NCBI GenBank assembly: GCA_905233915.1
Contig: CAJOFM010000001.1
Span: 145,475 to 209,474 of the forward strand
Direction of reading: 5' to 3'
DNA from: an uncultured Muribaculaceae bacterium
GTDB taxonomy: Bacteria > Bacteroidota > Bacteroidia > Bacteroidales > Muribaculaceae
DNA length: 64,000 bases
This document shows, piece by piece, positions 3,302 through 16,153 of this stretch. How positions within the stretch are numbered: the stretch's first letter is position 1; each line of letters begins with the position of its first letter. The notes beneath the pieces are model-generated. The model was not told the DNA's origin. It made no database searches and saw only the letters and a program-made list of their open reading frames with translations. A program made the position numbers and the translations under genes.

Positions 3302-4507
3302 ATGGCAAGTAGGATACTCCTGGTCAACAAGTTCTACTATCCCCGTGGCGGGGACTGCATTGTCACGCTCAACACCGAGGCGATGTTGCGGGACTGTGGC
3401 CTGGAGGCCGACGTGTTTGCCATGGAGTATCCCGAGAACCTGAACGCACGCTACAAGTCGCTGTTTGCAAGCGAGGTGAGCTTCGGCGGCGGCATGGGCA
3501 ATCTGCTACGCGCCTTGAAACGCACCATGGGCTTGGGCGACGTGAAAGAGCGCTTCGAAGCCGTGCTCGACGAGTTCAAACCCGACGTCGTGCATCTGCA
3601 CAACATCCACAGCTACCTGTCGCCCGTCGTTGGTGAGCTGGCCCACAAGCGGGGCATCCGCGTGGTGTGGACGCTGCATGACTACAAGCTGCTGTGCCCC
3701 CGCTACGACTGTCTGAGGGACGACAAGCCCTGTGAGAAGTGTTTCGGCGGTAGCAAAGTTCATGTGCTCACCAACAAGTGCATGAAAGGCTCGCTGCCCG
3801 CCAGCGGTGTGGCATGGCTTGAAGCCCTCAAATGGAACCGCGCGACACTGGAACGCAATACCGACGTGTTTGTGTGCCCCAGCGAGTTCATGGCCAGCAA
3901 GATGCGACAGGGCGGTTTTGACCCAGGCAAGATCAAGGTCCTCAACAATTTCCTTGATCCCGTGAAGCTCAAGATATACCAAAACACCGAGAGCAATGCC
4001 CAGCGCCAGGATTACTACTGCTACGTCGGACGACTCTCGCAGGAAAAAGGTGTCACCGACATGCTGGAAGCCGCGTCCCGCCTACCCTACCAGCTCAAAG
4101 TTGCTGGCGGCGGCCCGTTGGAAGCCGAACTGCGGGAGAAATATGCCCGCTGCCCCAATATCGAGTTTTTGGGAATGCTTGATGCACAAGGAGTCGTCAA
4201 CGTGCTCACGGCGGCTAAACTGAGCGTTATTCCCTCGCAGTGGTATGAGAACAATCCGCTGAGCGTTGTCGAGTCGTTATGTGCCGGCACTCCGGTCGCC
4301 GGGTCGCAAATAGGCGGCATCCCCGAACTCATCGACAGCAGCAACGGCGTCACGTTCCAACCCTTCAACCAGAAGGCCCTTTCAACGGCCATCACCATGT
4401 CGATGACCCGCGACTGGAACCACGCCAGGATTGCCCGCCAGGCCCTCGACCGCTTCTCAGCCTCCAACCATCTCAAGACCCTGCTCCATGACATTTATAA
4501 CGTGTGA
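3302..4507 (+). CDS. Glycosyltransferase family 4
   Basis: 'VHLHNIHSYLSPV', 'YVGRLSQEKGVTDMLEA', 'NPLSVVESLCAGTPVAGSQIGGIPELI'. Confidence 0.9.
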   Translation: MASRILLVNKFYYPRGGDCIVTLNTEAMLRDCGLEADVFAMEYPENLNARYKSLFASEVSFGGGMGNLLRALKRTMGLGDVKERFEAVLDEFKPDVVHLHNIHSYLSPVVGELAHKRGIRVVWTLHDYKLLCPRYDCLRDDKPCEKCFGGSKVHVLTNKCMKGSLPASGVAWLEALKWNRATLERNTDVFVCPSEFMASKMRQGGFDPGKIKVLNNFLDPVKLKIYQNTESNAQRQDYYCYVGRLSQEKGVTDMLEAASRLPYQLKVAGGGPLEAELREKYARCPNIEFLGMLDAQGVVNVLTAAKLSVIPSQWYENNPLSVVESLCAGTPVAGSQIGGIPELIDSSNGVTFQPFNQKALSTAITMSMTRDWNHARIARQALDRFSASNHLKTLLHDIYNV

Positions 4508-12409: not shown

Positions 12410-13447
12410 ATGAATCCTGTAGCCATCAGACTTCTCAACCAGCAGCTCATCTCCCCTCAGTTTGACAGCCCTGCCGAGGTGGTCAGCCACATGGGTGCCA
12501 TACAGGCCCAGGAATACCGCATGATGCGATGGGCAATAGAGATGCGGACACGCAAACCGTCGGCCACAGCCTTCAAACAGGCTTTTGACAGCGGGCAGAT
12601 TATCCGTCTGCACTTGATGAGAGGCACCTGGCAACTGGTGTCGTCCGAAGACTACTGGCAGATGATCGCGTTGTGTTCATCCAAAGCCCTCGCCGTTACC
12701 ACAGGATGGATGAACAGCAATCAGATTACCCTACCCCACGAGGAACTGATGCGCGTCAGGGATATACTTGTCCGAACTGCGGCCGACAAAGGCAGTGTGA
12801 CCAAGGAAGATTTTGTCCAGGCTTTGGAGGAGAAAGACCTGCGGCTGGATGACCACCCATTGTCCTATCACATCCGCATGGCAGAGATCTCGGGCGTGCT
12901 GTGCAGCGGAGATTTGCTGCCCATGAAGGCCACTTATGCCCTCGCTGCCGACAAAGTTGGGCCCTCACCCAGGATTGACCATGACGAAGCCCTGATGCAC
13001 CTCACTAGAAAATATTTCCAGAGCCGCCAGCCGGCAACATTGGAGGACTTTGTTTGGTGGTCGGGACTCAACGTGGGCGAATGCAGAAAAGGTATTGCAC
13101 TCCTGGGCAACACCATACATGCCGAGAAGTGGAAAGGCAGGACATTCTACCTGACAAACGAATGCCGAACGAGGGGATTCAGAAAGGGCAAATTCCTCCT
13201 GATTCCCCCGTATGACGAATACCTCATCGGCTATAAAAGCCGTGACATTGTGCTTCCTGCAGCGTTCAGGCACCACGCCCACAACAACAGCGGGATTTTC
13301 AAACCCATCATTGCCCACGACGGCATCATTTGCGGCAATTGGACACCCTTCAAAAATGACTGCGACGTGATATTTTTCAACGATGAGTTCGACCCTGAAG
13401 ATGTGAAACGCGCCTGGCAATTGTACCAAAATTACCGATTATCGTGA
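12410..13447 (+). CDS. Winged-helix DNA-binding protein, AlkZ-like (HTH_42) DNA glycosylase family
   Basis: 'LLNQQLISPQFDSPAEVVSHMGAIQAQEYRMMRWAI', 'HLMRGTWQLVSSEDYW'. Confidence 0.8.
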   Translation: MNPVAIRLLNQQLISPQFDSPAEVVSHMGAIQAQEYRMMRWAIEMRTRKPSATAFKQAFDSGQIIRLHLMRGTWQLVSSEDYWQMIALCSSKALAVTTGWMNSNQITLPHEELMRVRDILVRTAADKGSVTKEDFVQALEEKDLRLDDHPLSYHIRMAEISGVLCSGDLLPMKATYALAADKVGPSPRIDHDEALMHLTRKYFQSRQPATLEDFVWWSGLNVGECRKGIALLGNTIHAEKWKGRTFYLTNECRTRGFRKGKFLLIPPYDEYLIGYKSRDIVLPAAFRHHAHNNSGIFKPIIAHDGIICGNWTPFKNDCDVIFFNDEFDPEDVKRAWQLYQNYRLS

Positions 13448-13555
13448 CTAGTCGTCCGCGCACGATTTCAAACAACTTAAATAACAAGGATGACAACTGG
13501 AACAACCTTGTTCAACGGAAATTCCCTGCCAATTATAAAAATAAAGCATTCATTT

Positions 13556-13587
13556 TTTGACCATTAATGTGAATTGAACTATCTTTG
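13556..13587 (+). promoter_or_regulatory. Bacteroidetes promoter: TTTG (13556-13559) - 20 bp - TATCTTTG (13580-13587)
   Basis: Both hexamer-like elements match the established TTTG/TAnnTTTG consensus with the usual spacing. Confidence 0.7.
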
Positions 13588-13593
13588 CCTTTG

Positions 13594-13876
13594 GAAACGG
13601 TGCAATCCTGTGCCGTATCCAAGACATCGTGGTATATAATTAGCGTTGGCTATTATTCAAACGTTCAGAAACTTGCAGGTGAAAGAACATGTTATCGGAA
13701 TAATGGTAGCGCTCACCTTGTGTGGGCGTTTTCCTGTTCTGATGACATAGGTTTCCTGCAAGTACCTTGAACGTTGGACGGGGATTCGTCCACCTTCCAT
13801 ATCCCGAGGTGCTTGCAGGAACGCTTTGTTTATTGGCCCAGCGCATTAATAATAACGACAACATTATTAATGCTTT
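13594..13876 (+). ncRNA. Candidate structured leader RNA / ncRNA upstream of methyltransferase-nuclease pair (family unrecognised)
   Basis: Hand-found helices: 13597-13603/13610-13616; 13660-13668/13767-13775; 13671-13679/13755-13763; 13689-13702/13735-13748; 13708-13716/13722-13730; 13775-13780/13787-13792; alternative 13753-13769/13805-13821; perfect 11-bp IR 13843-13853/13863-13873. Wobbles are all G.U on the + strand. Confidence 0.7.
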
Positions 13877-14986
13877 ATGGCAAACGAAAGTCTATCTAAG
13901 GCTAAGGAGGCCAAGAATGACGAGTTCTACACTCAGTACCAAGATATTGAGAAGGAAATCTCGGCCTATCTTGAGTATAACCCAGACGTGTTCCGTGGCA
14001 AGACGGTGCTATTGCCGTGCGATGACCCCGAGTGGAGCAACTTTACCAAATACTTTGCCCAAAATTTTGAGAAATTCGGACTCAAGCGGTTAGTTTCCAC
14101 CAGCTATGCCCCCGAGAGCAAACGGTACAAATATGGCTATCAGCCCACCCTGTTTGAGACCGAGGCCCCGCATTTTGACGCCGACAAGAGCAAAACCCAT
14201 GGCAAAATCTTCATCCTTGACCATGACGTGACGGGCGACGGGAAAATCAACGTTGAGGACCTGCAGTGGCAATATCTTGAGGGCGATGGTGACTTCCGCA
14301 GCAAGGAAATCTGCAAACTGCGCGATGAGGCTGATTTCATCATCACCAACCCGCCTTTTTCCCTTTTTAGGACATTCTTAATGTGGATTTTAGAAGCAAA
14401 CAAGCAATTCGTTATCATCGGCAACATGAATGCCGTGACCTACAAAGAAGTTTTCCCGCTGATTAAAGAGAATAGAATTTGGTATGGGTGTTCAATTAGC
14501 AGTGGAGATAGAGAATTTGCTGTACCTGATGAATATCCATTGACTGCTGCGGGTTGGAGAATTGATGAACATGGTAAAAAATATATCCGTGTTAAGGGTG
14601 TACGTTGGTTTACTAACCTTGACCATGGCCGCAGACACCAGCAATTGGCATTGATGACAATGGCTGATAATTTGAAATTTAGCCGTCATAAAGATATCAG
14701 AGGACGTGAGAATTATGAGCATTGTATTAATTATGATGCTATAGAAGTGCCATTCACTGATGCAATTCCAAGTGATTACGAGGGCGCAATGGGGGTGCCT
14801 ATTTCATTTCTTGATAAATACTGTCCTGAACAGTTCGAAATTTTGGGAATTGGATTAGAATTGGCCAATATGGAAATCATTAAGAAGAAGTTGGGCAAAC
14901 TTAATGGTGGGCCTCGTTTATATGTTGAAAGAGACGGGGAATTAGTTCGTTTATATGAAAGAATTCTTATCCGCAAAAAGCAATAA
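13877..14986 (+). CDS. Adenine-specific DNA methyltransferase, EcoRI family
   Basis: 'AKNDEFYTQYQDIEKE', 'VLLPCDDPEWSNFTKYFAQNF', catalytic 'DFIITNPPFSLFRTFL' (NPPF). Confidence 0.9.
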   Translation: MANESLSKAKEAKNDEFYTQYQDIEKEISAYLEYNPDVFRGKTVLLPCDDPEWSNFTKYFAQNFEKFGLKRLVSTSYAPESKRYKYGYQPTLFETEAPHFDADKSKTHGKIFILDHDVTGDGKINVEDLQWQYLEGDGDFRSKEICKLRDEADFIITNPPFSLFRTFLMWILEANKQFVIIGNMNAVTYKEVFPLIKENRIWYGCSISSGDREFAVPDEYPLTAAGWRIDEHGKKYIRVKGVRWFTNLDHGRRHQQLALMTMADNLKFSRHKDIRGRENYEHCINYDAIEVPFTDAIPSDYEGAMGVPISFLDKYCPEQFEILGIGLELANMEIIKKKLGKLNGGPRLYVERDGELVRLYERILIRKKQ

Positions 14987-14992
14987 GTTGAT

Positions 14993-16153
14993 ATGGAAAC
15001 GATATTAAGAACTGATATAACCGTTCGTGACATCTGCGAGGGCTTTGTCTATAACGAGTTGGAGGGTAAGGGCCTGTTTGGCTTGAATGGCAAGCTGACC
15101 ATTCAGCCCGAATACCAGCGCAACTACATCTATGCCGACGGCAAGAAAGATGTGGCTGTCATCGACTCGGTGCTGAAGGGCTATCCGTTGGGTATCATCT
15201 ACTTCATTGAGGTGAATGACCATTACGAGGTGCTGGACGGGCAGCAGCGCATCACGAGCCTGGGGCGTTTTGTGACCCATAAACTCGCCATCAAGGACAA
15301 GAACGGAATGATGCAGTATATCGATGGCTTGAACCAGGAGGACCGCGACAGGGTATTGAACACGACCCTGCTCATCTACATCTGCAAGGGCTCCGAGAGC
15401 GAAATCAAGGAATGGTTCCAAACCATCAACATTGTGGGCATCGCGTTGAACAATCAGGAGAAGCTGAACTCCATTTATTCGGGACCTTTTGTCACTGAAT
15501 TGAAGAAAGAATTCAGCAACTCGCAGAACGCCAACATACAGAAGTGGAAATCCTATATCCGTGGCACGGCTAACCGTCAAGACTTCTTGGAGCGAGCCTT
15601 GCAGTGGGTAAGCCAAGGCAATGTTGAGGGCTACATGAGCCTTCATCGCCAGGACACCGACATCACCCCCGTCAAGACCTACTTCAACGCTGTCATCGAC
15701 TGGGTGTCGGGAGTGTTCAAGGACGTGCTGCCCGAGATGCGCGGCCTGGAGTGGGCACGGCTCTACGAGGAGCACCACCACAAGCCCTACAACGTGACGG
15801 CAGTGTCAAAGCGGGTGCATGAACTCTATGCCGACCCGTTTGTCACCAACCACAAGGGCGTGTTTGAATACATCTTGGGCGGCGAGAAAGACAAGAGCCT
15901 GCTGAACATCCGCATCTTTGACAAGGCGACCATTAACCGCGTCTATGCCCAGCAGACCGAGGCGGCCAAGAAGAGTGGTGTGAGCAACTGTCCCGACTGC
16001 GCCTTGCAAGAGGGCAGCAACAGCACTCGCATCTGGAAACTCAGCGAGATGGACGCCGATCACGTCACAGCTTGGAGCAAGGGCGGTGCGACCGACGAGA
16101 GCAACTGCCGCATGCTGTGCCGCCACCACAACCGCTCCAAGGGCAACAAGTAA
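14993..16153 (+). CDS. DUF262 (GmrS/ParB-like) - HNH endonuclease fusion
   Basis: DUF262 '[23 protein letters not shown]' (I/L-DGQQR-T); C-terminal HNH 'CPDCALQEG...[34 protein letters not shown]'. Confidence 0.9.

Follow-up and report, generated by a model that had tools for sequence, protein, structure and literature searches.

A conserved, apparently switch-like leader RNA precedes an adenine methyltransferase with exchangeable segments and a near-constant DUF262-HNH nuclease in Muribaculaceae

The regulation of restriction-modification (R-M) genes is usually ascribed to controller proteins or antisense RNAs. Several described systems share features with the two-gene unit considered here, which lies in a 64,000-nucleotide stretch of DNA from an uncultured Muribaculaceae bacterium (the window). 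Like type II R-M systems, the unit has adjacent genes for one adenine methyltransferase (MTase) and one nuclease, but the nuclease is a DUF262-HNH protein rather than an EcoRI-like enzyme, and the MTase carries exchangeable segments while the nuclease is near-constant. The resemblance to type I systems, in which HsdS bears two target-recognition domains, lies in two independently swapped segments that would set specificity next to a constant nuclease. These two swappable segments, whose role in recognition is presumed, are present within the MTase itself; there is neither a separate S subunit nor an HsdR helicase, the nuclease is of the DUF262-HNH type, and only two genes stand in place of HsdM, HsdS and HsdR. 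In the type III (Mod/Res) systems and in BREX, with its PglX, the likeness is that the MTase would be the specificity factor for a target-independent partner; this locus differs in having no Res helicase, no BREX genes and two genes only. GmrSD, BrxU and SspE share with our nuclease an N-terminal DUF262 domain with a DGQQR motif and a C-terminal His-Me nuclease, but here the C-terminal domain is a PF01844 HNH instead of DUF1524 (PF07510, for which the nuclease gave no match) and is paired with an adenine MTase. The neighbouring proteins that were checked included no product of cytosine-modification or phosphorothioate (sspBCD, dnd) genes.

The RNA upstream of the genes also has described counterparts. 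Attenuators and riboswitches are likewise 5′ leaders that join a conserved pseudoknotted domain, mutually exclusive helices, a gene start and a terminator hairpin, the last being present with its U-tract in some family copies and not in that of the window; the present leader differs in lacking an Rfam match and in preceding a very mixed set of genes strongly weighted towards R-M and secreted or surface proteins. The FopS small RNAs of Bacteroides are multicopy, terminator-ended molecules of 65–70 nt, composed of a single-stranded 5′ region and one hairpin, that act in trans on susC mRNAs (PMC11697453). Both are multicopy Bacteroidales RNAs with a terminator, but the leader described here is longer than 200 nt, structured and situated at start codons, and on size and architecture we rejected its assignment as a FopS RNA.

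All features of the unit are on the forward strand. It begins with a Bacteroidota-type promoter (13553–13587), read from the sequence as a −33 element, TTTTTTG, at about 13553 and a −7 element, TATCTTTG, at 13580–13587. The A(C/T)CTTTGCC end of this promoter is kept across the genus copies in the alignment, and the sigma-70-type promoter match at the locus is weak. A non-coding leader of ~285 nt separates the promoter from the MTase open reading frame (13877–14986), which encodes a 369-residue, EcoRI-family adenine-N6 DNA methyltransferase (PF13651, E = 4e-132) with an intact NPPF catalytic motif at 14348–14359. The second gene (14993–16153) encodes a 386-residue protein with a ParB/GmrS-like DUF262 domain (GmrSD_N, PF03235, 8e-19) that contains DGQQRIT (DGQQR at about 15236), followed by a C-terminal HNH domain (PF01844, 8e-8) at about 16058–16132. 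An earlier note on this DNA had read a promoter, a structured leader and these two intact genes from the letters, and each of these elements was borne out; the genes do abut, with a gap of 6 nt and not the 7 nt it gave. Its further suggestion of an undescribed layout stands in part. The openly licensed papers searched, which are weak evidence of absence, yielded no RNA leader on R-M genes, no recognition domains swapped beside a DUF262-HNH nuclease and no match to the layout. As a protein pair, however, the combination is not undescribed, since PADLOC type II models match both proteins over their full length (MTase_II, PDLC03297, 1e-91; REase_II, PDLC03418, 5e-83) and such pairs occur widely in several phyla, on chromosomes as well as plasmids. 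Just 5′ of the unit lies an AlkZ-like DNA glycosylase gene (12410–13447) whose matches in relatives are away from leader loci and which is probably outside the unit. A short stretch at 13466–13510 (ACAACTTAAATAACAAGGATGACAACTGGAACAACCTTGTT) is a dispersed repeat found at many sites in genomes of the genus.

The leader folds at −115.6 kcal/mol, compared with −76.2 ± 5.2 kcal/mol for dinucleotide shuffles (z = −7.6), and 0 of 200 shuffles were as stable. Its 5′ hairpin P0 (13591–13622), supported by the fold and the alignment, differs in sequence among copies. The conserved core of the leader family, captured in covariance models R1 and R2, spans 13640–13847. In P1, GCGUUGG (13643–13649) pairs with 13838–13844 in 92.4% of alignment cells. 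Within this core, UAUUAUUC (13651–13658) pairs with GAAUAAUG (13698–13705) as a pseudoknot, aligned as UUAUUC/GAAUAA, with 86–88% of cells paired and two-sided changes in three pairs. The 5′ strand of helix A, CGUUCA..ACUUGCAGG, occupies 13662–13679 (two-sided changes at 8 of 15 pairs). The stem P3 (13689–13748, with 13689–13696 opposite 13741–13748) is hypervariable in sequence with its pairing retained, showing two-sided changes at 8 of 8 pairs, and hairpin P4 (13710–13728) is paired in 98% of cells. A middle strand (13753–13773) can pair either with the 5′ strand, forming helix A, or with a 3′ strand, AGGUGCUUGCAGGAA (13807–13821), forming helix B, and compensatory changes are found for both. 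Between these strands lies hairpin P5 (13776–13791), an intrinsic terminator with a U-tract in many family members that is here associated with CCTTCC and has no U-tract. The last hairpin, P6 (GCATTAATAA..TTATTAATGC, 13843–13873), is seen in alignments, overlaps P1 by 2 nt and ends 3 nt before the start codon; it is also found at three further loci (L051, L073 and L075). No conserved upstream reading frame was seen when the aligned leaders were read by eye.

Covariation was assessed in a MAFFT alignment of 16 leader copies, with shuffled and column-slid alignments as controls. For the helix-A fold (helix A, pseudoknot, P1, P3, P4 and P5), 89% of cells are paired, against 36–45% in the slid controls, and two-sided changes occur at 22 pairs compared with 12.6 in the shuffled controls. 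The helix-B fold has 90% of cells paired and two-sided changes at 16 pairs, compared with 9.1 when shuffled. Helix A and helix B compete for a single middle strand and are mutually exclusive. Two exclusive helices that are both conserved look like the signature of an RNA switch, and the leader is to this extent switch-like in appearance, as had been suspected; the compensatory changes, well above both sets of controls, support the structure.

The leader and the two genes recur together. A DNA search with the leader against 101 genomes of the genus gave matches in 15, of which 13 are directly upstream of the start codon of this MTase and one is upstream of a type III R-M pair (L051); a leader match near ispF (G024:C40:59756, L015) is partial, with 73 nt. 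Among 54 nuclease loci in the genus, 45 have a leader RNA of the family in one of two sequence types, and the leader, MTase and nuclease thus form the conserved unit that had been surmised. The R1 leader is present at 13 of the 17 close nuclease loci, while the second type is present at 11 of 13 and 21 of 24 of the more distant ones; because most relatives have the second type, the R1 model alone would understate the co-occurrence. The second type differs in sequence but keeps the order of elements, with AGCATTCGCTATTATTTC at the 5′ end, a two-part helix, a hairpin and a start-codon hairpin, and it has 16 pairs with two-sided changes. Its model, R3, weakly matches the loci of the first type with exactly the same start position, which suggests common descent of the two types. 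Further copies lie ahead of even more divergent MTase-DUF262 pairs and, with a leader of the second type, ahead of one gene for an acyltransferase-like protein (L354). In another family of the order, an R2 RNA stands before a divergent pair whose MTase and nuclease show 46% and 38% identity (L179).

The unit is found at different genomic sites with differing flanking genes and always with the leader at its 5′ end, so that leader and genes appear to move together. The leader is not required for function, as 4 of the 17 close relatives have none and pairs in other phyla lack a matching RNA: the R2 model gave no match at pairs outside Bacteroidia. In the four leaderless close relatives (L304–L307), a short 5′ UTR follows a TAnnTTTG promoter. 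Read by eye, MTase-HNH operons of other phyla carry unrelated attenuator-like leaders (L028 and L029 at about 3700–4000; L024 at about 3780–3900) with a long-range helix and an intrinsic terminator, and in Saccharibacteria with a hairpin directly before the ATG. A further shared leader type, ending in a terminator (GGCTTCACGCTTTTTTT), was observed in the 300 nt 5′ of the MTase at three loci (L017, L020 and L026) and matched neither R2 nor R3. On a Phocaeicola plasmid (L269, 2440–3480), about 1 kb with a phage antirepressor-like reading frame is situated between the MTase and the nuclease.

Comparison of the proteins revealed exchange of segments within the MTase. Among 12 genus copies in which both proteins are complete (66 pairwise comparisons), the MTase framework and the nuclease are uniform, unlike two segments of the MTase: segment 1 (residues 202–243, 14480–14605) is either at least 0.86 or at most 0.33 identical between copies, and segment 2 (residues 322–362, 14840–14962) either at least 0.71 or at most 0.34. 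The two are swapped independently, with segment 1 alone common to 12 of the comparisons, segment 2 alone to 4 and both to 1; in the 16 pairs that have one segment in common and not the other, mean identity is 0.82 for the framework and 0.84 for the nuclease. The extreme case is a pair of loci (L044 and L048) whose segments are 0.28 and 0.24 identical and whose nucleases, with differences scattered along them, are 93% identical. In a set of 30 loci drawn from several phyla, segments are shared across phyla against the relationship of the frameworks, and over the 435 pairs, which are not independent, the identity of the nuclease tracks that of the MTase framework (rho 0.59) and neither segment 1 (0.12) nor segment 2 (0.00). 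Given this pattern and known R-M biology, segments 1 and 2 presumably read DNA, and the MTase probably supplies the specificity of the pair. That framework and nuclease track each other tightly suggests that the two proteins are in contact. The earlier note had mentioned neither the swappable target-recognition segments nor how widely the RNA family, described below, extends.

Among the solved structures, no sequence homologue of either protein was found. The predicted fold of the nuclease, a model of moderate confidence, has BrxU as its best PDB match (E = 1.4e-4, low TM), with weak matches to small HNH enzymes and to the modification-dependent EcoKMcrA, while the MTase returned only generic SAM-methyltransferases, including M.BseCI. 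Other variants of the MTase were also observed. In two Saccharibacteria loci, a pair of spare segment-2 modules separates the MTase from the nuclease (L028, 5085–5300; L029, 5093–5310), and in the latter a (GA)n repeat tract shifts the frame into the next segment-2 module. At L046 (G058:C44), the MTase frame is shifted before segment 2, giving a truncated 293-residue product, by decay, phase variation or an assembly error.

The RNA family extends far beyond this unit. Of the 393 genomes of the order, 84 contain matches to model R2, in 58 of 207 genera and with up to 6 copies per genome, as do 25 of 295 genomes of the class, orders beyond Bacteroidales included; one R2-type match that retains only part of the core (L077) was omitted from the model. 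In Rfam 15, neither the window nor the divergent copies scored above the gathering threshold of a family, and scans below threshold gave nothing beyond chance-like microRNA models and a single tRNA that is unrelated, so that the family is apparently uncatalogued. Phage and plasmid records showed no DNA similarity to the leader. We examined 126 copies in context, 119 of them with an assigned gene, and in 102 of the 119 the gene starts within 60 nt of the leader (median 17 nt). These genes include about 20 for DNA methyltransferases, which belong to type I, II, IIG, III and C5 systems; the first genes behind the leader include HsdM-type N6_Mtase, N6_N4_Mtase, MmeI type IIG, C5 methylases, EcoRI_methylase, a dynamin-like protein and GmrSD, the last a true GmrSD (L142). 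At one locus (L051) the leader, with its start-codon hairpin, precedes a type III pair (N6_N4_Mtase and ResIII), and R1 located divergent copies before another type III system and before three membrane enzymes of the PF00884 sulfatase superfamily. These three enzymes (L074, L075 and L076, in G024 and G009) are phosphoethanolamine-transferase-like, and surface modification genes may share the signal of the leader RNA. First genes outside R-M mostly encode secreted proteins, with a signal-peptide-like N-terminus in 57 of 98 by a crude rule. Because the seed and model were built from R-M copies, the enrichment of R-M genes among the matches is in part ascertainment and the absolute proportions are biased; in a local control, the nearest gene is an R-M gene downstream at 12 of 40 loci and upstream at 1 of 39 (p about 7e-4).

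A terminator hairpin with a U-tract follows helix A in 58 of the 126 copies, compared with about 5% in shuffles. The clade of the window keeps P5 and has lost the U-tract; termination at P5 may thus be inoperative in the window copy, and regulation here may be translational or through competing folds rather than through termination. The helix-B strand is typical of defence-linked copies and is not a feature of copies before secreted proteins (median z −1.9 vs 0; p = 1.5e-5); sulfatase-linked copies also have it. The earlier proposal that the RNA sets the ratio of MTase to nuclease is not supported, as the leader lies 5′ of the two genes alike and the same RNA is found ahead of many single genes and operons unrelated to them.

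The reading we consider the probable one is that of a mobile R-M unit of two proteins, retargetable because its specificity comes from the MTase, and controlled by a cis-acting, attenuator-like leader RNA. The two exchangeable segments would read the two halves of one target, in which an adenine would be modified. The DUF262-HNH nuclease, having no target reader of its own, would be directed to, or licensed at, unmodified targets by contact with the MTase framework, probably with use of nucleotide binding by DUF262, and a swap of either segment would retarget modification and cutting at once. The leader would be a transferable element consisting of a 5′ domain (pseudoknot, helix A, P3 and P4), then P5 and then the competing strand, and the choice of fold would govern the amount of operon mRNA that is completed, or that is translated from the hairpin-flanked start codon. 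We infer from sequence that the two leader folds interconvert and alter expression, that the MTase recruits the nuclease and that the unit restricts DNA. Against this reading, the nuclease could still possess a short-range specificity that escaped detection, or it could respond to a different cue and act on whatever DNA lacks the mark.

Classic type II R-M, with an independent sequence-specific HNH restriction enzyme beside the MTase and the leader merely a regulatory 5′ UTR, would fit the PADLOC type II models for both proteins, the two adjacent genes without a helicase and, weakly, the fold matches to small HNH enzymes and EcoKMcrA. An independent type II enzyme would, however, have to change along with its MTase, and a nuclease changing with MTase specificity is not what the sequence comparison, an indirect criterion, found: the segments swap freely beside a near-constant nuclease, as at L044 and L048, and nuclease identity does not follow them. 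We give this reading little weight. A type IV-like arrangement, with DNA of host or phage marked by the MTase and a DUF262-HNH protein that recognises this mark or a phage modification in the manner of GmrSD, BrxU and SspE, would account for a nuclease that does not follow the segments. It is favoured by the DUF262 and His-Me nuclease layout common to those systems, by BrxU as best fold match and by a true GmrSD behind the same RNA family. We nonetheless regard it as unlikely, since a nuclease cleaving at m6A set by the adjacent MTase would be self-destructive, the close tracking of framework and nuclease suggests contact, and the HNH is not DUF1524.

With regard to the leader, its own promoter, the intrinsic terminator that about half of the copies carry, the several copies per genome and the precedent of FopS, albeit at only 65–70 nt, are what would be seen if it were an independent small RNA that ends at its own terminator and acts in trans, the adjoining gene being just one target. 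Most copies nevertheless stand on the same strand a few nucleotides from a start codon, the window clade lacks the U-tract yet keeps the structure and the hairpin beside the start codon, and the downstream competing strand is inside the mRNA leader, all of which render an RNA acting in trans quite improbable. A site acting as DNA, that is, a folded recombination or insertion end of a mobile cassette, would explain why a unit found at differing genomic sites always has the leader at its 5′ end, and hairpin sites can also show base-pair covariation. The upstream promoter, the sense-strand terminator with its U-tract, the fixed spacing to the start codon and the start-codon hairpin speak against it, the element is found ahead of many single genes of unrelated kinds, and the opposite end of the unit showed no counterpart to it; this reading is very improbable. 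A role for the RNA as a guide for the nuclease, whose HNH is weakly IscB-like, was rejected because type III, type I and non-nuclease genes also have this RNA in front of them.

A retargetable R-M unit under a cis-acting leader may be one instance of a wider arrangement, which we advance tentatively as a possibility: a switch RNA spread across Bacteroidia, and perhaps representing a new riboswitch-like class, would subject nearly all R-M types, as well as surface-modifying and secreted genes, to a single shared signal, for instance phage infection or cell stress. Here it would drive a new two-subunit R-M system, with an EcoRI-family MTase of two recognition segments directing a DUF262-HNH nuclease that has no specificity itself. 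If true, a transferable switch-like leader of type I, II, IIG, III and C5 systems would constitute a common RNA layer of defence control in Bacteroidia, and a constant DUF262-HNH nuclease with a two-segment MTase would be a compact retargetable R-M design, one that predicts the type II annotation of the pair to be wrong.

The leader could also serve as a marker for unannotated defence operons, for which two loci pairs offer examples. At L107 (2731–5900) and L111 (2703–6650), the RNA is followed by a conserved operon of uncharacterised proteins, a candidate unannotated defence system, that includes a protein of about 171 residues, one of roughly 870–900 residues beginning MAGWN(Y/F)R(R/K)RV.IAPGVTLNFS and, in L111, an ion-channel-like protein. 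At L109 (2758–7825) and L112 (2698–7550), it is followed by a protein of about 300–345 residues without a Pfam match and by one of about 1320 residues, a candidate new R-M or defence pair.
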